Part shown: positions 2,466 through 61,210 of the stretch, one piece after another | Layout: every line of letters starts with the position of its first letter | How positions within the stretch are numbered: the first letter of the stretch is position 1 | Origin: Spraguea lophii | Lineage: Eukaryota > Microsporidia > Spragueidae | Assembly (NCBI GenBank): GCA_001887945.1 | Contig: LDOQ01000342.1 | Location: 61,835-125,834, forward strand | Length of the DNA stretch: 64,000 nt | Direction: 5' to 3' | Made by a program: the position numbers and the translations under genes | The notes under the pieces: generated by a model | Told to the model about the DNA's origin: nothing | Database searches by the model: none | The model's input: only the letters and a program-made list of their open reading frames with translations

Positions 2466-3465
2466 AAAAAAATTGTAGGTGAAATAAAATATATTTAATT
2501 TTTTCTAGAAAAAATAAATTTTTAAATAATAGTTTAAAATGATAGTTTGATATTTTTTAAAAGGTTTTATTTTGTCGCTATACGTCATCATATGAAATGT
2601 TTTAATGTTTTAAGTGTATCAACTGATAAGAAATTAGATGAAAATATTATTATTTTATTACAATCGTATTCATAAGATTTTTGATAGTTATATAATATTA
2701 GAACCATTATATGAAAATATATATAACTATCTATCATAGATTCTATTACAATAATAAAATAAAATATATAAACTCAGAATATAAAATTAAAATATTATTT
2801 ATCGTAATCAATTATAATATCACACATGCGATATATGACAATAAAATAAATACTCATATAAATATTAAAATAAAAAGAAATTAAAAAAAATATAAATAAT
2901 TAAATATTTGTTTTATTTATGTTTACAAGACCAGTCAGAACGCTACAGTACTACAGTGTATATACTGCAACTACTTATCATAAAAATATTCATAGTATTA
3001 TTACAGTAACCATACATCTTCATCCTGGCCGGAAATGGTACAGTTCATCTGAACATGACTGCGAACTAACTATACAAATGATTCTGAAAAGTACAGACGT
3101 CGCTAGGGTAGAAGAAAAATATAATATATATACACAAAAAAATTTAAAAATATGGGTCAAGAAAATAGATTATATGTTTATTATAAATATAGTAATAGGT
3201 ATTATCATTTAATTATAAGTATTATATAAAAATATTATTCTTTTTATAATATTTTTTCTTTTAAAATTCCATTATTTTTTTAATCATAATGATTTAAATA
3301 TATGTGATGTATCTAATTTTTTCTAAATCTACTATTAAATTTTGTTACCACATCATTCCAGATTACTACAAATAATATTATATAACATATTACTAATAAA
3401 TATACAAAATAATAGAAATATTATCTTATATCATCAATAAGTAATTTACTTTACTTAATATTTAT
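2466..3465. other. Intergenic region
   Basis: About 1 kb without a supported gene. A 97-codon open frame on the plus strand (2919-3212) has a more balanced codon content in its first half, but it lacks a C-run start signal and any family resemblance. I treat it as chance or an eroded remnant. Confidence 0.4.
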
Positions 3466-3968: not shown

Positions 3969-4362
3969 AACTCGTTTAATCTCGTGATCATGGGATAGTA
4001 ATTAAATCCTAAATCTAATTGACTCAAATCCCTCACAAATAAAATCCTTTAAAATAAAAAACCTAATTGAGTATAACTTAATTATGTATTATAAAATAGC
4101 ATTAATATTAGGTTAAAGTAGTGTTTAGCTTGTGTAATTGCAATTCCTGTATTGATTAATCGTTAGGTCAATATTATATCAAGAAGATAGTTATTATCAC
4201 CTTAATCTGATAGAGTGATGAATATACCATATACAATATCCTAGTACATAAGATAAAATAAAATTAATACGTACATGTAAAAGCACCAGTTAGTACAAAT
4301 TATTCAAGAATCTAACAATCTCAGACCATAATAAACTACAACCATCTGAATCATTTTAATTA
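3969..4362 (+). mobile_element. Degenerate SINE, copy F
   Basis: This near-full-length but heavily eroded copy is of the same family as 27925-28415. The B-box region survives as gactcaaatccctca. Internal blocks such as taaagtagtgtttagct and cctgtattgatta are nearly unchanged, and the 3' part (accagttagtacaaatt, cagaccata) is clear. It sits between cytochrome b5 and the next gene upstream. No target-site duplication is visible. The gap to 4464 holds nothing else. Confidence 0.75.
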
Positions 4363-4464
4363 AAGGGTTATTATCTATTAAATTAAAAACATATAAATTT
4401 TATTATAATAAGATTATTTATTAAATATAAAAATATTTTATTTCTATGAATCAAAAAAATATTC

Positions 4465-12410: not shown

Positions 12411-12461
12411 AGAGGGTTTAACGTGTAAATAATTATTATTTTAAAATATAAATATTTTCTT

Positions 12462-12580
12462 TAAAATGAAAATTTTATTTATTGAAGTTTCCTGACCTGT
12501 TATTGTTAATGGCCTTTAGTTCCCGAAATATATTTAAGTTTGTACTAACTAATTTCGTTACATACATATATTAATCAACA
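12462..12580 (-). mobile_element. Degenerate 3' fragment of SINE, copy I
   Basis: Read on the minus strand, this piece matches the last 120 bases or so of the SINE. On the plus strand the blocks gaagtttcctgacctgtta, aagtttgtactaactaatttcgttac and atacatatattaatc correspond to the element's 3' end in inverted orientation. The tRNA-like head is missing. It lies in the 340-bp gap between the 101-aa orphan and eIF5; the rest of the gap is plain AT-rich sequence. Confidence 0.65.
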
Positions 12581-27224: not shown

Positions 27225-27836
27225 TTAATTATATCTTTCTCTAATCATTTTCTCTATCTGTTTTAATTTCGAAAAAATAAATTCATCTAAAGCTTCAACA
27301 AACACATTACCAGTTTCTTCTTTTTCATTAATCACTTTGGCTACTATTTGCTCCAATTCTTCTCTTTTTTTCGGATTATTATCCCAAGCCAATTTACATT
27401 CCACTTTACCTTTATTAAATGCATTTACATTTATTTTTAAAGCTTCTAAAGCTGCTCTACTATCAAAAAATTCCACATATTTTTTAAAATTCTTATAATC
27501 TCTCACTTCCTTTATCTCACCAAACTTTTCCAACTCATCATGTATTTCCTCATCAGTAAGTGGGGCTTGCATATCTTTCATTGATAAAAATACTGTACCT
27601 TGACAAGCATTTTCTAATTCTTGAGTATGTAAACAAAAATTAACATCTATAAAATTTTTATGAAGTTCTTTATAGGCTTCCACAGCAGTTCGTAAATCGA
27701 AGAATGTAATAAAATCAAAATCATCATTTATTTTTATTATTTCTTTATATTCGAAATTGTTTATAATATTAGAAGATGCTTTTGTATTTCTAAGAAGCAA
27801 AACTCTGGTCTTGGTAGATAGTTTTTGATCATACAT
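27225..27836 (-). CDS. Mei2-like RNA-binding (RRM) protein
   Basis: This 203-residue protein has a degenerate first RRM (about 10-80) and a clearer second RRM (about 82-155): GTVFLSMKDMQAPLTDEEIHDELEKFGEIKEVRDYKNFKKYVEFFDSRAALEAL is split across RNP-like strands. The combination of 'GEIKEVRD' and 'YVEFFDSRAA' is typical of the Mei2/AML family, RNA-binding regulators of the mitosis-meiosis switch. The family's distinctive C-terminal RRM3 is not seen; instead a charged helical tail follows. The start is directly preceded by AATCCC. It may equally be a general hnRNP-like protein, but the second RRM favours the Mei2 group. Confidence 0.7.
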   Translation of the reverse strand: MYDQKLSTKTRVLLLRNTKASSNIINNFEYKEIIKINDDFDFITFFDLRTAVEAYKELHKNFIDVNFCLHTQELENACQGTVFLSMKDMQAPLTDEEIHDELEKFGEIKEVRDYKNFKKYVEFFDSRAALEALKINVNAFNKGKVECKLAWDNNPKKREELEQIVAKVINEKEETGNVFVEALDEFIFSKLKQIEKMIRERYN

Positions 27837-27909: not shown

Positions 27910-27924
27910 GAGATTAAATTTCGT
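27910..27924 (+). repeat. Left target-site duplication of SINE copy A
   Basis: The 15-bp sequence gagattaaatttcgt occurs here and again at 28416-28430, immediately after the A-tail of the element. A duplication of this length with an A-tail is the mark of target-primed reverse transcription. Confidence 0.85.
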
Positions 27925-28415
27925 CCCGCTTGGCCCAGTGGTCGTGGGGTGGTAACCAAACCCCAAGCCTGGCGGGTTCGAATCCCTCATCCAGAAAAAA
28001 ATTTTCAAAACAAAAAAAAATAATAATAAACGCAGAAGAGAAGAAAAAGGTTGTTGAGTGGGTGAGGTTTCGATAGTGCAGCATAGCTGTGCTTTGTATG
28101 ACGGCCCCGCTACTAGATTAAAGTAGTGTTTAGCTGATGTAGTTGCAATCCCTGTATTGATTAGTGACTCGGCCAATACTATGCAACGAAAGAGGCTGGG
28201 AATTCCTTAAGAGCTGGAAGTGGGGGCGGCGACGTGCACCAGACGCAAAATCCTAACACTCTGGAGCATAAGGTAAGATGAGATTAATGCATATCTGTAG
28301 CGAAACCAGTTAGTACAAGTTTAATTTCGCTCGAGGAACCGAAGGTCACAGACCATGGTAGGCCGCAACCGGCCAGGAAACTTTGATAAATAAAAGTTTC
28401 ATTCGTAAAAAAAAA
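27925..28415 (+). mobile_element. Full-length tRNA-derived SINE, copy A
   Basis: This 491-bp non-coding retroelement has a much higher GC content than its surroundings. Its head carries a Pol III A box (tggcccagtgg, 27931-27941) and a B box (ggttcgaatcc, 27975-27985) at normal tRNA spacing. An A-rich linker, a unique body of about 380 bp and a 3' end with nine A residues follow. A 15-bp target-site duplication flanks it. It encodes no protein: the open frame on its minus strand is an artefact that recurs in every intact copy. Such elements are moved by a partner LINE; none is visible here. Nearly identical to the inverted copy at 29219-29710, so recent. Confidence 0.9.
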
Positions 28416-28430
28416 GAGATTAAATTTCGT
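28416..28430 (+). repeat. Right target-site duplication of SINE copy A
   Basis: An exact second copy of gagattaaatttcgt, directly following the nine-A tail of the element. Confidence 0.85.
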
Positions 28431-29206: not shown

Positions 29207-29218
29207 TATTTTTGAAGT

Positions 29219-29710
29219 TTTTTTTTACGAATGAAACTTTTATTTATCAAAGTTTCCTGGCCGGTTGCGGCCTACCATGGTCTGTGACCTTCGGTTCCTC
29301 GAGCGAAATTAAACTTGTACTAACTGGTTTCGCTACAGATATGCATTAATCTCATCTTACCTTATGCTCCAGAGTGTTAGGATTTTGCGTCTGGTGCACG
29401 TAGCCGCCCCCACTTTCAGCTCTTAAGGAATTCCCAGCCTCTTTCGTTGCATAGTATTGGCCGAGTCACTAATCAATACAGGGATTGCAACTACATCAGC
29501 TAAACACTACTTTAATCTAGTAGCGGGGCCGTCATACAAAGCACAGCTATGCTGCACTATCGAAACCTCACCCACTCAACAACCTTTTTCTTCTCTTCTG
29601 CGTTTATTATTATTTTTTTTTGTTTTGAAAATTTTTTTCTGGATGAGGGATTCAAACCCGCCAGGTTTGGGGTTTGGTTACCACCCCACGACCACTGGGC
29701 CAGGCGGGAC
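29219..29710 (-). mobile_element. Full-length tRNA-derived SINE, copy B
   Basis: This is a 492-bp element on the minus strand, nearly identical to copy A along its whole length (a few substitutions, for example gcctggcccag for gcttggcccag at the start). Its T-run (29219-29226) is the A-tail in inverted orientation. A 12-bp duplication, tatttttgaagt, lies at 29207-29218 and 29711-29722. A and B boxes are intact apart from a B-box A-for-G-strand change (ggtttgaatcc). The plus-strand open frame here is spurious. Confidence 0.9.
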
Positions 29711-34918: not shown

Positions 34919-35608
34919 TTAATCTTTTCTTAAATCGTATACCATTCTTTCCATACCACTTCTCTCCACAACAATTATTTCCAAATAATCTCCAGTTTTT
35001 ACATCTCTCTCAGCCGCTGCATTAAAAGAACTTCTTACAATTTCTATAGCTTTATTTTTATCAATATCCAACAAACTAGGATCTACTTCTTTATTCCAAT
35101 TTCTCTTATTAATTAATGAATCCAGTAATGGTTGGATCATACTGGCTGCTGATCCATCTACTCTACATTTATTTAATGAATATGAACCTATGCAATCAAA
35201 AGAATACAAAAGAAATTCATCACTCGTTTTTTCATATCCACCTAAAGAACAAAATACATAATAAGGAAAAAATCTTCTGGTATATAATATATTGAACAAT
35301 AAATGTGCTGCACTACTTATTTTCATAGGACCATTTCTTTGTTCATAAACAATTATTTCGTATTTTAATCTTTGAAAAACCTCATAGACATCAGCATAAA
35401 ATCCTGTACCACAAAATATTATATTTTTGTACCTAAATATTTTACTGGATTCCCTACTGTTTATCAACGAACCAGTACTATGTCTTGTATCAGCACTAAA
35501 TACAAGACAGTTATCAAGGGATAGACATAATGTAGTACCTGTATTATTGTCATATACATCCTCCTCTTTTACTTCATGTGAAATGAATAAATCCTTTTCT
35601 ACCAGCAT
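34919..35608 (-). CDS. PRE7: 20S proteasome subunit beta-6 (PRE7)
   Basis: This is a non-catalytic beta-ring subunit of the 20S proteasome. The start is set at the ATG at 35608, since CCC sits directly before it (between two ATGs, ATG-CCC-ATG); this yields 229 residues. The beta-subunit fold opens at NNTGTTLCLSLDN with DTRHSTGSLINSRESSKIF. The subunit-specific signatures of beta-6 follow: LYTRRFFPYYVFCSLGGYE, YSFDCIGSYSLNKCRVDGSAASMIQPLLDS and AAERDVKTGDYLEIIVV. The RRFFPYYVF and SAASMIQP blocks distinguish it from the other beta subunits. No processing to a catalytic Thr1 is expected. Upstream in-frame codons to 35674 are probably untranslated. Confidence 0.93.
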   Translation of the reverse strand: MLVEKDLFISHEVKEEDVYDNNTGTTLCLSLDNCLVFSADTRHSTGSLINSRESSKIFRYKNIIFCGTGFYADVYEVFQRLKYEIIVYEQRNGPMKISSAAHLLFNILYTRRFFPYYVFCSLGGYEKTSDEFLLYSFDCIGSYSLNKCRVDGSAASMIQPLLDSLINKRNWNKEVDPSLLDIDKNKAIEIVRSSFNAAAERDVKTGDYLEIIVVERSGMERMVYDLRKD

Positions 35609-35989
35609 GGGCATAAAAGAATGTTTGTTTTTTAATAAAAATAAAAATATCACTGGATTATAATTCTTTATCATTTAAAATGAAGATAACAATAATATCC
35701 TTTAAAATATATTTGAGATCTTTAAAAAAGAGACCTTATTAACATAAAAGCAATACGAAAAATAAATAATATATTTAGGTTGAAAGTAATGAAAAATAAA
35801 ATAATAAAGAAACAATTAAATAAAAGCTGGATAATTCTTAAAATTATCTGATAGAAATATAATGCTTATTTAATTTTCTTATTTAAATATTCAGCAACAC
35901 TTTTTTCCTTTATATCAATTATCTATGATTTATAATATCTTAATAACATTCCATTATATAATTTTTAAAACACAACAATTTTATTATAC
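35609..35989. other. Intergenic region
   Basis: About 380 bp, AT-rich, with no recognisable content between proteasome beta-6 and the next minus-strand gene. Confidence 0.5.
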
Positions 35990-40647: not shown

Positions 40648-41127
40648 TTTTTTTATTAATGAAATTTTTATTTATAGAAGTTTCCTGATCAACTGTGGCT
40701 AACCACGGCCATGACCTTTGGTTCCTAAAGCATATCTAAGTTTGTACTAACTGGGTTCGCTATAGATATGCATTGATTTCATCTTACTTTATGTTCTAGA
40801 CCGTTAAGGGTTTGTGTATGGTACACATCGCCGACCTTTTTTCCAGCTTTTAAGAAATTCCTAGCCTCTTTGTTGGCATAGTATTAGCCGAGTCACAAAT
40901 AAATACAGTGATCGCACTTACACCAGCTAAACACTACTTTAATCTTGTAGTGTGCCGTCGTACAAGACACAGCTAATATGCGTTATTGAATCCTCACCCA
41001 CCAACAATCTTTTTCTTCTCTTCTGCTTTTATTATTTTATTTTTTGAAAATTTTTGTGGATGAGAGATTCGAACACGCAAGGCTTGAGACTTGGTTACCA
41101 CCTCACGACCATTGGGCCAAGCAGGCC
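40648..41127 (-). mobile_element. SINE copy C, full length, moderately diverged
   Basis: A 480-bp element on the minus strand. The T-run at 40648-40654 is the A-tail; the tRNA-like head is at the right end (the B-box region reads tgagagattcgaacacgc, the A-box region attgggccaagca). It is about as complete as copies A and B but carries many substitutions and small indels, so it is older. No clear target-site duplication. Confidence 0.85.
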
Positions 41128-48214: not shown

Positions 48215-49383
48215 AAAAATAAATAAATGTATTTATGAAATGAAAGTTGTTATTGTTTTGTTATTTAAAAAAAATGTTTTTATTTATATGATTTTTTTGA
48301 AATAAATATATCTTTCATTTATATGATTTTTTAAAATAACATTTTAATCATCATCAAAATGCTACTGCCGGTTGTGGTCAACCAAGATCAGAGTTCGTTA
48401 ATTCATTGAAACACGAATAACTTATATTAACTGGTTCCGTTACATATATACATTACTCTTATTGTACATCCTATTCCAGCGTATTGTAATTTTGTATATG
48501 ATGTAAACATTATTTTACTGTTCTTAACAAGATTCTAAACTCGTTTTGGAATAGTGTTGGCCGGCCATTAATAAATACAGATGTTATAACTATATTAGCT
48601 AATCATTACTTCAATCTAGCTATAGATTATTGTACGAAACATAACCAAACTATGCTATTAATTTTTCTTTCACCCAACTTATCTTCTTTTTTCTTCTATC
48701 TCAATTACTTTGTTATTTTTTTGTTTTAATTTTTTATACGTAAGAATTAGAACGCGCTAAATTTAGGATTTAGTTTCATCTCTACTCACCAAATCAGGCA
48801 GGTGCGTAAATATCGTTGTTTTAATTTTTTATTCATAATCAAAGAAGTATTAAGAAATATAACATTAAAGATTATATGAGATGTGTTGCAATTCCGAACT
48901 AATTTAGTTTATTATTATATTTATATAAAGAAATACGTATAAACATGATTTGTCCAAAACTACATTTTAATAAAAATCGAAAGACAATAGACTACTACAT
49001 ACATTGCGGTAACTATACCGGTAATGGTAATGTGATTGTGTTGCAATTAATACCTTTTCCTCCTAATAACTTTTGGATTTATAATTTTTATAATCGAATA
49101 ACGCTATAATATCGATTTGTATCAAAAATATCATTATAATATATTTACATTTAAGTTGGTTATATCGATATTTATGATATACAGCTTTCTAAATCTCGTA
49201 ATATTACGACACCTAAAAAATAAAATGATATATCTTAGAATTTAAATTAATAAAATCGAATATTATTGTAATAAACAAATAATTGAATCTTGTTAGTTAT
49301 TTTTAAAGATTTTTTACACAAATTTTTGATTAAAACAAATTAATATAATGTTTTTTATTTGGAACAATTTAATAATAAATACT
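48215..49383. other. Intergenic region with SINE copy D
   Basis: About 1.17 kb. It holds SINE copy D and, to its right, AT-rich sequence without a gene. An unusual GC-richer patch (attgcggtaactataccggt-aatggtaatg, 49004-49033) has no open frame of note. Confidence 0.5.
48325..48803 (-). mobile_element. Degenerate full-length SINE, copy D
   Basis: This old minus-strand copy spans the whole element: tgccggttgtggtcaaccaa (3' end inverted), ttaactggttccgttacata, then aatacagatgttataactat and tattagctaatcattacttc, and a head region at the right end (aatcaggcagg). Many substitutions, mostly C/G to A/T, as expected for old CpG-poor AT drift. Confidence 0.75.
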
Positions 49384-50652: not shown

Positions 50653-51433
50653 ACGGGGCTGTTAAATATCGCTTTATATATAATTAAATATACTAGATTT
50701 AATAGATTATCTGAATTTAGAATAAACGTATTCATTAATATCTATTTTAACCTTAGTAATATTAATTTTAAAAAACATGTGTAATTTTTTATCCATAATT
50801 GTACATCGGCTATAATAAAAATTAAAAGAGAAAATTAAAATAAAAAAATATCCTCATTTTTGAAAAAAGTTTTAAAGCCAGTTTTCTATTGATAATAGAA
50901 TGATAATTAAGGCGTAAACATGATGAGTTCAAATATCTCATATATAAAAAATATCAAAACAAAAAAATAAAAAATGGAAGAGAAGAAGATGGTTTGAGTA
51001 TATGAAAGTTCGATAATGTAATCTAATCATGTCTTATACAACCAACTCGTGTTATGTTAAAGAAATGGTTAATTAATGAAACTATAATCCTTGTTCTTAT
51101 TAATAACAAAAATAATATATATCTAGAACGAATTTAAATCCTATATAAATAGAAAACGAATATGATGCCTACCATATATAAAACTCCAGCACTCCGAAAC
51201 ATAAGGCAAAATGAAATTAATACATATATCTAACGAAGACAGTTAATACAAATTACTTGTATATTAAAAAATCGATAGAGTTACATTATGGTAAACATCA
51301 ATCAACCTGAATTTTTTGGATATGATTAAAATGTCATTTAAAAAAACGAAGGAAAATATTAACGAAATTTGAAAAATGTAGTAAAATACTACATAATATT
51401 TACAATAATTAAATTTCAAACATTTTTATTGCG
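50653..51433. other. Intergenic region with SINE copy E
   Basis: About 780 bp, mostly the old SINE copy E, without a gene. Confidence 0.5.
50876..51346 (+). mobile_element. Degenerate full-length SINE, copy E
   Basis: An eroded plus-strand copy. The B-box region is gagttcaaatatctcatat; the A-rich linker (aatatcaaaacaaaaaaata) and the following gaagagaagaagatggtttg match the consensus, as do actccagcactccgaaacat and gttaatacaaatta near the 3' end. It ends in an A6 run at 51341-51346. No target-site duplication found. Confidence 0.75.
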
Positions 51434-56470: not shown

Positions 56471-58006
56471 ATGAATATTTTCTAAATTTATATTAACATT
56501 AAACTTTTATGATTTATATATGTAATATTAAAATATTTATTGATGTGATATAAAAATATATTTGATCGATCTTCCTAATAAATAAAATAAGATATTGTAA
56601 TGATTAATAATCCTGTTTAAATAACTTTATATGATGCATTGAATATTATTTAGAAAGAAAAAACTATCAATCGCGTTCGCGTATATTTCTGAATTATCAA
56701 AGCTTATAAAGGTTTTAGAATGACTAACTGTTAAATACTATATCTTTGATTTAATACTGATTTATATATTTCCACATTATGTTTTATTATTGGACATCTG
56801 CAATATTGGTCAATTCATACATTACTGATGTTAATTTTTATTTTCCTACCGATGTCTATACACATAATATATTTCTTTTAGTTTTATAATTTTGTTTAAG
56901 AAAAAACTTTCGTTTATTCCAATAATAATACGATTAATAATTATATTCATTCTTATAATTATAATTTATATAGGAATTACTGTGTCAATAAACTTTTCAC
57001 AGATTCTCAGTCCCCAATATATTTTTCAGATAAATTTAATTTTTTATTTGCTTTCGACAAAAGAGTGGAAAATCCTTCTTCCACCTATTACTAAGATTTT
57101 ATCAGATAAATTAAATCGTTGCTTGTTTCCTACACTTAATGGCTTATAAAAAATTCTTATTATTTTTAATTGATAATTTGTTATTTAAAAAAGAAAAGTT
57201 ATTTGCTTTAATACTCTATCTTTTTTATTCTAAAGAACATCTCCGTTTATAACCATCCATAATATTTAAAATTTAACCAATGTTATAAAAATATTACAGG
57301 TAAATAAAATATCTATTTTTGATAATATGATATTTATTTAAAAACTTGATTATATTCTATTTCTTAAATAATTTTGTTGAATCTTTAAATTTGTAATTTC
57401 ATCTTCATACCAAGATCTCATTTATTTATTTTAATCTTTATATATTCCAACATCACTGTCCCTGCTTCATAAATAACCAATGATGATATTGATTCTCCTT
57501 TTTCTCATGCCTTTAAATTTATAACCATGATCACCATATAATATAATTGTGTGTTATTTCACTTGTTTAAGAACTTATTAATTTCCAAATTGTTTATTTG
57601 TTAATAAGTTCATATTTTCTATATCTTTTTTAAATGTCATCTTTCAAATATTGTTTTCAAATGTATTCACTTTCAATTTTATAATAACAAAAGAAATATA
57701 ATTTTATTTTTAACAATATTTCTAAAGAGAAAATATAAAGTATTTTATTTATAAATATTGTAAATTTCTTTATAAGCCAATTTTATACATAATTTTTATT
57801 TTTAGAAATTTCATAATCTTTGATAACCATGTGTCATATTTTTATTAAATTCAATATTTTAAAAAATATTTTGAATTTGTTAAAATAAATGGATAAAGTT
57901 TTTCTCTCCCTTTGGCGGAAAACAAAAATAAAATTCAATATTTTTAAAAAACAAGCCATTCTTCAATTTTTATTTTTTTATAAAAAAAAATTTTACCACC
58001 CATAAA
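56471..58006. other. Intergenic region
   Basis: About 1.5 kb. An 85-codon hydrophobic plus-strand frame at 56892 lacks a start signal and is probably chance. The region near 57420-57560 keeps a coding-like flavour on the minus strand (GDHGYKFKGMRKRRINII), perhaps a gene remnant. It ends with TTACCACCCATAAA before eL37. Confidence 0.4.
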
Positions 58007-60197: not shown

Positions 60198-61210
60198 CGG
60201 GGCGTAATTTTATTTTTTTATAAAATATTTTTATTTCTGAATTATCCCGAATTAATAAAATTTATTATATGAAAAAAAATTTTTTTTATTTCTAATATTG
60301 AATATAAGATAAGATTAATGCATATCTGTAGCTAAATCAGTTCATACAAGTTTAAATATATTTTAGAAACCAAAGGTCATATACCGCAGTAGAGCACAAC
60401 CAACCAGAAAACTTCATAAATAAAAGCTTCGTTTTTAAAAAAATATTTCTAATTAAAACAATCGTAACGGCGCATATTTTAAAAAAATTATAAATCATTT
60501 TTAATAGCCTCTTACGAAAAATACTATATTTATAATTGGATTAAAATACAGAGATTATTACTTTAATTATTGTAATCAGCAGATATTCTCATATTAATAG
60601 ATACTTTCATTGATCTTCGTTTTTAAAATTATTTATAAAATATATTCATTATATAAAATTAACTGTAAATAATAAATAAAATTGAATAACAACATGCAAA
60701 TTTATTTTAAAATTATTAAACGATATTAAATTATTTTAAATATTGAAAATTGCCAAGATATGGTTCTATCTGATAATTTGAATACTAATAACATAAATAT
60801 AAAAAACTATGTTATGATTTTTCATATGTTCTTACCATGTTAAAATTATGTTTGATTAATAATTCAAGCATTTTTATTTATTATAAATTTTTTTATACTT
60901 TTTGATTGCAAATTAAAATATAAAATATATATATAGCACCTACACCATATTATCATTTATGATAAACAAGCATAATAAGTCGGTGAAAGATTTTCTTCTT
61001 TTCTTATGGAAAGAAATAAAAATAATTTATGATATATTAAAACAATTCCAATGCAAAAAATATTAGAAGTATAATTCTAATATACAATATCTTTTAAAAG
61101 ATATCATATGAATAGAAACTCAAAAATTTTATGTTAAAAAAATGTAAATATCCTTTAAAATAATAATTTAACTGAAAAATTAAGATATTTTTGAATTTTG
61201 TTTTATACCC
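60198..61210. other. Intergenic region with 5'-truncated SINE copy G
   Basis: About 1 kb between divergent transporter and coiled-coil genes. Apart from SINE copy G (60297-60443) no feature is visible. It ends with TATACCC before the next ATG. Confidence 0.5.
60297..60443 (+). mobile_element. 5'-truncated SINE, copy G, with target-site duplication
   Basis: This has only the last 147 bp of the element, still close to consensus (taagattaatgcatatctgt, then aaccaaaggtcatataccgc), ending in seven A residues. The 10-bp sequence tatttctaat lies at 60287-60296 and 60444-60453. The duplication directly brackets the truncated copy, so truncation happened during insertion, as in LINE-type reverse transcription. 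Confidence 0.8.

Follow-up and report, generated by a model that had tools for sequence, protein, structure and literature searches.

Where a SINE has its 3' end in common with a LINE resident in its own genome, the two form a stringent SINE/LINE pair. In the eel SINEs with UnaL2 and in Chlamydomonas SINEX-3_CR with L1-1_CR, as described in PMC3747384, the SINE is short, its 3' end is common to the resident LINE and the tail carries a stem-loop. The SINE family of Spraguea lophii described herein is alike in these respects, and some stringent-type SINEs covered by PMC3747384 end in poly(A), as it does. Unlike the eel and Chlamydomonas pairs, it belongs to a microsporidian, keeps the hairpin block with the ~105 nt of LINE 3'UTR after it absent, and is known from sequence alone.

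Two fungal families are also close. MgSINE of Magnaporthe (472 bp, ~100 copies, cited in PMC5063351) is a tRNA-class fungal SINE that, by its description, is comparable in size and copy number; the S. lophii family differs in its setting, a genome of 5.3 Mb. AfuSINE2-1a of Aspergillus fumigatus has a 3' end resembling the 3'UTR of the resident LINE I-1_AF (Tad clade), according to PMC5063351. That account gives at least 4 copies and names the tRNA source, whereas the S. lophii SINE has roughly 250 copies or more and no recognisable source among the 48 distinct tRNAs of its genome.

For microsporidia, the elements recorded in transposon papers are LINEs, LTR retroelements and DNA transposons (PMC3749934, PMC4202319, PMC3486916). 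Table 1 of PMC4202319 gives one LINE family for S. lophii, and one passage of PMC3749934 calls five of the 20 LTR retrotransposons. The word SINE is absent from the main texts of these S. lophii, Trachipleistophora hominis and Parisot papers. The original prediction knew of no SINE family in this group. Our literature search, whose scope left out most subscription journals and supplements, likewise found none described; however, a SINE class total is listed for Nosema bombycis (28,669 bp, 0.18% of the genome; Table 2 of PMC3614468). That table entry comes without a sequence, structure or partner, unlike the S. lophii family.

Structure of the SINE copy at 27923-28415

The window is the whole 64-kb stretch of S. 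lophii DNA that was analysed. An A box, a B box at tRNA-like spacing, an A9 tail, a perfect 15-bp target-site duplication (TSD) and a high GC content had been predicted at 27910-28430, and all were confirmed. The copy is full-length, with both boxes, a body of ~300 nt, a LINE-like 3' region, A9 and the TSD. The unit measures 491-493 bp, and its GC content is 44.6% vs 22.6% for the window. We regard its identity as a SINE as virtually certain. Its features are given below; counts over 30 copies, here and later for TSDs, boxes and age, refer to the best 30 of 40 copies with flanks and are hence biased toward the window's copy.

27910..27924, plus strand: left TSD GAGATTAAATTTCGT, 15 bp, its last GT common to the element's 5' end
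27923..28415, plus strand: young full-length SINE copy (locus L001), one of the best 40 near-full genome copies (96-100%)
27931..27941, plus strand: Pol III A box TGGCCCAGTGG; 29 of 30 copies show the A-box pattern
27975..27985, plus strand: Pol III B box GGTTCGAATCC, beginning 44 nt downstream of where the A box begins; 28 of 30 copies have it
28002..28005, plus strand: TTTT, possible weak internal Pol III terminator; TTTT hereabouts in 28 of 30 copies
28291..28378, plus strand: tail region akin to the LINE, matching L076:1788-1873 in the LINE 3'UTR at 72.7% over 88 nt
28330..28377, plus strand: two-hairpin block, GGTC-ACA-GACC within a 4-bp stem, then GGCCG-CAAC-CGGCC; the LINE tail forms both too
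28407..28415, plus strand: A9 tail; 6-12 A end the aligned part in 30 of 30 copies
28416..28430, plus strand: right TSD GAGATTAAATTTCGT, a perfect 15-bp repeat

The element had been predicted to span 27925-28415. The 3' end at 28415 stands, but the 5' start was revised. AGT precedes CCCG in 22 of the 30 young copies and exact TSDs end 2-4 nt ahead of CCC in 19 of 22; the element therefore starts with (A)GT, at ~27923 in the window copy, where the GT is also part of the 15-bp repeat. Exact 15-mer pairs 300-700 bp apart (with at least 3 different letters) occur three times in the 64 kb, presumably including the pair at 27910/28416, so that this lone TSD proves little and the proof is carried by the family statistics.

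The window ORF list holds no ORF of at least 120 aa that overlaps the SINE. In the 751-bp stretch around it, neither inverted repeats nor direct repeats besides the TSD were found, that is, none of the terminal repeats that mark LTR elements and MITEs. This bears on the reading that the unit is a MITE or other DNA transposon, or a Cassandra-like LTR element with a small-RNA-like promoter. Elements of such kind exist (PMC10886601) and those classes also make TSDs; against this, the TSD length in the present family varies from 10 to 17 bp, an A-tail is present and one copy is 5'-truncated, besides the missing terminal repeats. We consider this reading extremely improbable.

An RRM-like ORF (27225-27836, minus strand) has its start codon ~90 bp from the SINE; the SINE lies upstream and may thus sit in the promoter of the RRM-like gene.

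Promoter and tRNA source

The B box is inexact in two copies (L002 and L021). The start-to-start spacing from A to B box is 44 in 25 of the 27 copies that have both. The element had been called a tRNA-derived SINE; a multi-copy SINE with Pol III-type boxes was indeed found, but 'tRNA-derived' proved too strong a term. The head was reported as a tRNA neither by ARAGORN nor by the Rfam tRNA model, and Rfam returned for it only a 13-nt match to a tmRNA T-arm (E 0.088). A scan of the whole unit against Rfam at low thresholds gave 4 hits, none convincing. Comparison of the head with the 48 distinct tRNAs of this genome (57 loci) gave no recognisable source, with a best score of 16.2 (Arg-TCG), while tRNAs of different isotypes scored a median of 26.4 and a minimum of 14.5 against each other. 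Since none of the 48 could be recognised as the source, we speak of a tRNA-like promoter instead. The predicted fold of the head is no better than that of shuffles (z -0.58). Degenerate heads can occur in accepted SINEs.

Terminators of the 48 distinct tRNA genes consist of T5 or longer in 43 and of T4 in 5. The TTTT at SINE position 77 may therefore be a weak terminator, and it could stop Pol III early.

Copy number and target-site duplications of the family

The assembly searched comprises 5,273,041 bases in 73 contigs. Further copies with TSDs were expected from the original prediction and were found: every one of the best 40 among 457 first-look candidates is a near-full copy (96-100%), and 4 more matches were partial. 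With up to 3 mismatches, the whole assembly contains 246 sites for a body motif, 156 for a B-box-region motif and 137 for a tail motif, the last including some LINE-B ends (within 3 mismatches; as few as 2 bases different). The reversed motifs gave 0 sites each. The SINE was also sought in viral contigs, which held 0 exact matches to one 24-nt motif.

By a strict rule, 22 of the 30 copies lie between exact TSDs, which measure 10-17 bp. When flanks were re-paired between copies, a repeat of at least 10 bp appeared in 0 of 5785 pairs (null maximum, 9). Among the eight copies without a strict exact TSD, L011, L016 and L023 showed 13-14-bp repeats in a looser scan; in L007, L019, L021 and L028 a TSD is lacking or doubtful, and the eighth copy, L020, is treated below. 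At L022, a young SINE lies within the tail of an old one, with the TSD ACCAAGAAACTTCTG, and the joined flanks (insert and one TSD copy removed) align as a single old SINE over positions 115-486 at 72%. The copy adjoining L020 begins at ~position 110 and is thus 5'-truncated. None of the findings that speak against a SINE (no more copies, shared flanks or a protein-coding element) was made. Given this anatomy, we infer that the family moved by target-primed reverse transcription.

At L020 (C1:142809-144273), a full SINE and the 5'-truncated one stand inverted to each other with swapped TSDs, ATGTATACACAATAA and TTCATTGATT. This is expected if recombination between the two inverted SINEs flipped the ~600 bp between them.

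The multiplicity of copies might also come from segmental duplication or from an assembly artefact, and many contigs do begin inside SINE or LINE sequence. Yet the 30 copies have different flanks, which on re-pairing never share a repeat of at least 10 bp; we find this explanation hardly credible. The contigs that start in or just before a SINE or LINE are C3, C15, C22, C25, C36, C47, C48, C54, C56, C60, C72, C21, C63 and C11, and the tail motif stands at 56-89 in C15, C25, C54, C56 and C60. Because so many contigs begin there, these repeats seem to limit the assembly.

Divergence of the 30 copies from their majority consensus averages 1.4%, and is 0.2% for the closest two copies. Most frequent among the 207 counted differences is C>T (68), though part of these differences is noise from aligning the A-rich linker. 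Variants held in common by copies suggest that the young SINEs had several sources. As had been predicted, the family looks recently active from these sequences. It could instead be dead, its mobility old and its copies kept alike by gene conversion; no complete LINE was seen among the loci read, and the window's two copies are closest to each other (99%). We judge this very unlikely, since copies lie in unrelated flanks with perfect TSDs and as little as 0.2% from the consensus, and non-LTR retrotransposon transcripts are reported from germinated spores of S. lophii (PMC3749934).

A probable resident LINE partner

Contig C21 (locus L076) opens with two consecutive LINE 3' parts, LINE-A and then LINE-B. 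The LINE-A part ends in GGTTTTCTCCTCCTCTGGTGGAAAAC-A9; the LINE-B 3'UTR runs from ~1780 to an A10 near 2000. The best 40 of 109 candidates for the LINE-B 3' end include 11 further matches of at least 186 bp (71-95%), plus shorter ones and SINEs. The start of contig C72 (L039) carries a LINE that breaks off within its RT: GDWN and SDH, which we take to be endonuclease motifs, were recognised by eye in the ORF, and RT-like sequence continues to where the contig stops. This ORF has no Pfam match at E 0.001. Most similar to it is P0121 (31% over 99%), a protein with endonuclease domains; the next ones are Smittium culicis proteins, several of them named 'Transposon TX1' in their source. The endonuclease matches of the C72 copy are split over two frames. 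A degenerate copy at C1 contains an L039-like RT piece (67% over 39 residues) and then the LINE-B 3' end (64% over 481 nt). Because this one degenerate copy joins both halves, the C72 ORF was provisionally assigned to LINE-B. No LINE contiguous from endonuclease to 3' end was present in the loci read, and the RT middle parts seem to be missing from the assembly.

Fragments of both lineages that are 5'-truncated and flanked by exact 10-14-bp TSDs, similar in size to those of the SINEs, were found at C8 (AAATTAGAATAA) and C6 (ATTTGCCCAA) for LINE-B and at C34 (TATTTCAAAAAACA) for LINE-A. Around a further LINE fragment, at C7, the repeat is imperfect, and the fragments at C4 and C5 lack a clear exact one. 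Scanning the assembly with the reverse-transcriptase model PF00078 gave 9 matches, of which L039 is the LINE of C72, and L034 and L037 look like LINE remnants. L031, L032, L033 and L036 were rejected as LINEs, their ORFs appearing Ty3/gypsy-like (with Pfam for L031 and L033), and L035 and L038 were recognised as telomerase. This telomerase reverse transcriptase (C2:66528-67271) has long asparagine-rich insertions.

A LINE partner had been predicted, to be sought by a match to the last 50 bp of the SINE. The LINE-B 3'UTR is related to the SINE over ~90 nt near the SINE end. The alignment scores 37.5; 2000 dinucleotide-shuffled versions of the LINE average 9.5 and never exceed 18. The predicted LINE partner was thus found in the resident LINE-B, but the match does not extend significantly to the final 26 nt. 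These last nucleotides before the A-tail resemble LINE-B weakly, and a fraction of 0.015-0.17 of 197 A-run controls scored equally; as such controls in an AT-rich genome match it, the likeness of this block was counted as non-significant. The tail core GAACCRAAGGTCNCAGACCRTGGTRGGCCGCAACCGGCY is common to the C21 LINE and the window SINE. For both tails the predicted fold is GGTC-GACC enclosed by a 4-bp stem, and then GGCCG-CAAC-CGGCY. Measured against shuffles, the SINE tail has the better fold (z -3.61); a longer LINE-B piece does not (z +0.40), though it contains both hairpins. The SINE is without the ~105 nt of LINE 3'UTR that come after the hairpin block.

Does the mover read these hairpins? 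It might be a relaxed, L1-like LINE that needs only an A-tail, the shared hairpins being a relic of the SINE's origin. All 30 copies end in 6-12 A, and LINE-A and LINE-B both end in A. On the other hand, a single comparison, within the window, ties the shared block to LINE-B: a LINE-A piece (L076:1-1154) matched only outside SINE copies and the LINE-B 3'UTR matched both young SINEs; moreover, several older SINE copies have retained the tail. We consider the relaxed alternative unlikely and the use of LINE-B machinery by the SINE probable.

A LINE origin of the SINE body was looked for in L076, L078, L079 and L080. The sole strong match (98%, 303 nt) was a SINE copy within L078, and the remaining matches were short, with E 0.09 or worse.

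LINE-A is a second lineage with its own hairpin-like tail, seen at L076:820-1154 and 17 further sites, many of them short fragments of 44-200 bp. In the window its tail matches lie at 57041-57100, 57884-57932 and 60973-61022; no head or body of a second SINE family was visible by eye at these places (57041, 57884, 60973). Of the loci suspected of a SINE with a LINE-A tail, the one read (C34) has the usual tail, and the LINE-A fragment behind it is a separate piece. At L117 (C7:97180-97320), a SINE-like or tRNA-like head is interrupted by 44 bp of LINE-A with an imperfect 10-bp repeat, as judged by eye; this head resembles that of the young SINEs but differs from it.

Other SINE copies in the window

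The window holds two young copies and 8 older hits (61-80%), some of which are probably pieces of one copy. SINE copies of graded age cover ~4.8% of it, including the following.

29218..29710, minus strand: second young SINE copy (L002), 99%, inverted, own 11-bp TSD CTTCAAAAATA, B box inexact
40648..41125, minus strand: older full-length SINE copy, 80%, GC 37.9%
48327..48775, minus strand: old SINE copy, 63%, GC 27.6%
50901..51346, plus strand: old SINE copy, 61%, GC 24.2%
60305..60443, plus strand: old SINE 3' part, 78%
4106..4369, plus strand: old SINE fragment, 63%; 3984-4067 probably belongs with it
12455..12576, minus strand: old SINE 3' part, 70%

GC content declines with age, from a mean of 45.4% in young copies through 37.9% in the 80% copy to 24-29% in the six other old pieces measured. 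High GC therefore marks young copies and does not, taken alone, point to a foreign source.

The two young copies are nearest to each other (99%), yet each has its own TSD. They stand in opposite orientation ~800 bp apart (27923-28415 and 29218-29710). A read-through transcript of both would form a long RNA duplex; genes for Dicer and Argonaute are reported from S. lophii (PMC3749934).

Other genes

A ubiquitin-eL40 fusion at 25689-26072 matches PDB 7QCA chain LMM, from the S. lophii ribosome (PMC10522483), without a mismatch (127/127 residues). The best named relatives of a proteasome subunit at 34919-35674 are microsporidian (~50%), and the Vairimorpha necatrix proteasome shows 39% identity. 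The DNA therefore comes from S. lophii or a very near relative, and an origin in Nosema or Vairimorpha was rejected. A U3 snoRNA was detected at 2930-3100 of the window on the minus strand (41.5 bits). The microsporidian SSU rRNA model gave no match in the assembly among the best 5 of 45 candidates, and the rDNA may be missing from it.

Discussion

The best explanation of the data, to which we assign a probability of about 0.9, is that the S. lophii SINE is transcribed by Pol III and mobilised through LINE-B by means of its tail hairpins and A-tail. RNA polymerase III would transcribe the SINE from the internal A and B boxes, giving an RNA whose terminal part is akin to the 3'UTR of the resident LINE-B, which is probably of the endonuclease-plus-reverse-transcriptase type. 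The LINE protein would recognise this RNA by the two hairpins and the A-tail, and reverse transcription at a nicked target would leave the 10-17-bp duplications. SINE and LINE-B together look like a recently active stringent-type pair.

As a type of element the SINE family is unremarkable; its novelty lies in its host, a microsporidian. It is likely the first characterised microsporidian SINE family and part of a stringent pair that is still active, with two LINE lineages bearing different 3' hairpin tails, one of which was captured by the SINE. If this is true, the choice of template by the LINE would be set by the tail, because the two lineages differ in their hairpin tails and the SINE took up one of them. 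The same reading includes a long-lived and continuously renewed lineage in a highly reduced eukaryote, whose young SINEs and LINEs are GC-rich in a genome of 22% GC and whose old copies drift toward the genome composition.

The S. lophii SINEs give insertion markers for strain typing, and their fall in GC from 45% to 24-29% with age offers a clock for genome decay. The SINE/LINE pair is also a natural test of whether hairpin-based recognition of LINE tails extends to microsporidia.
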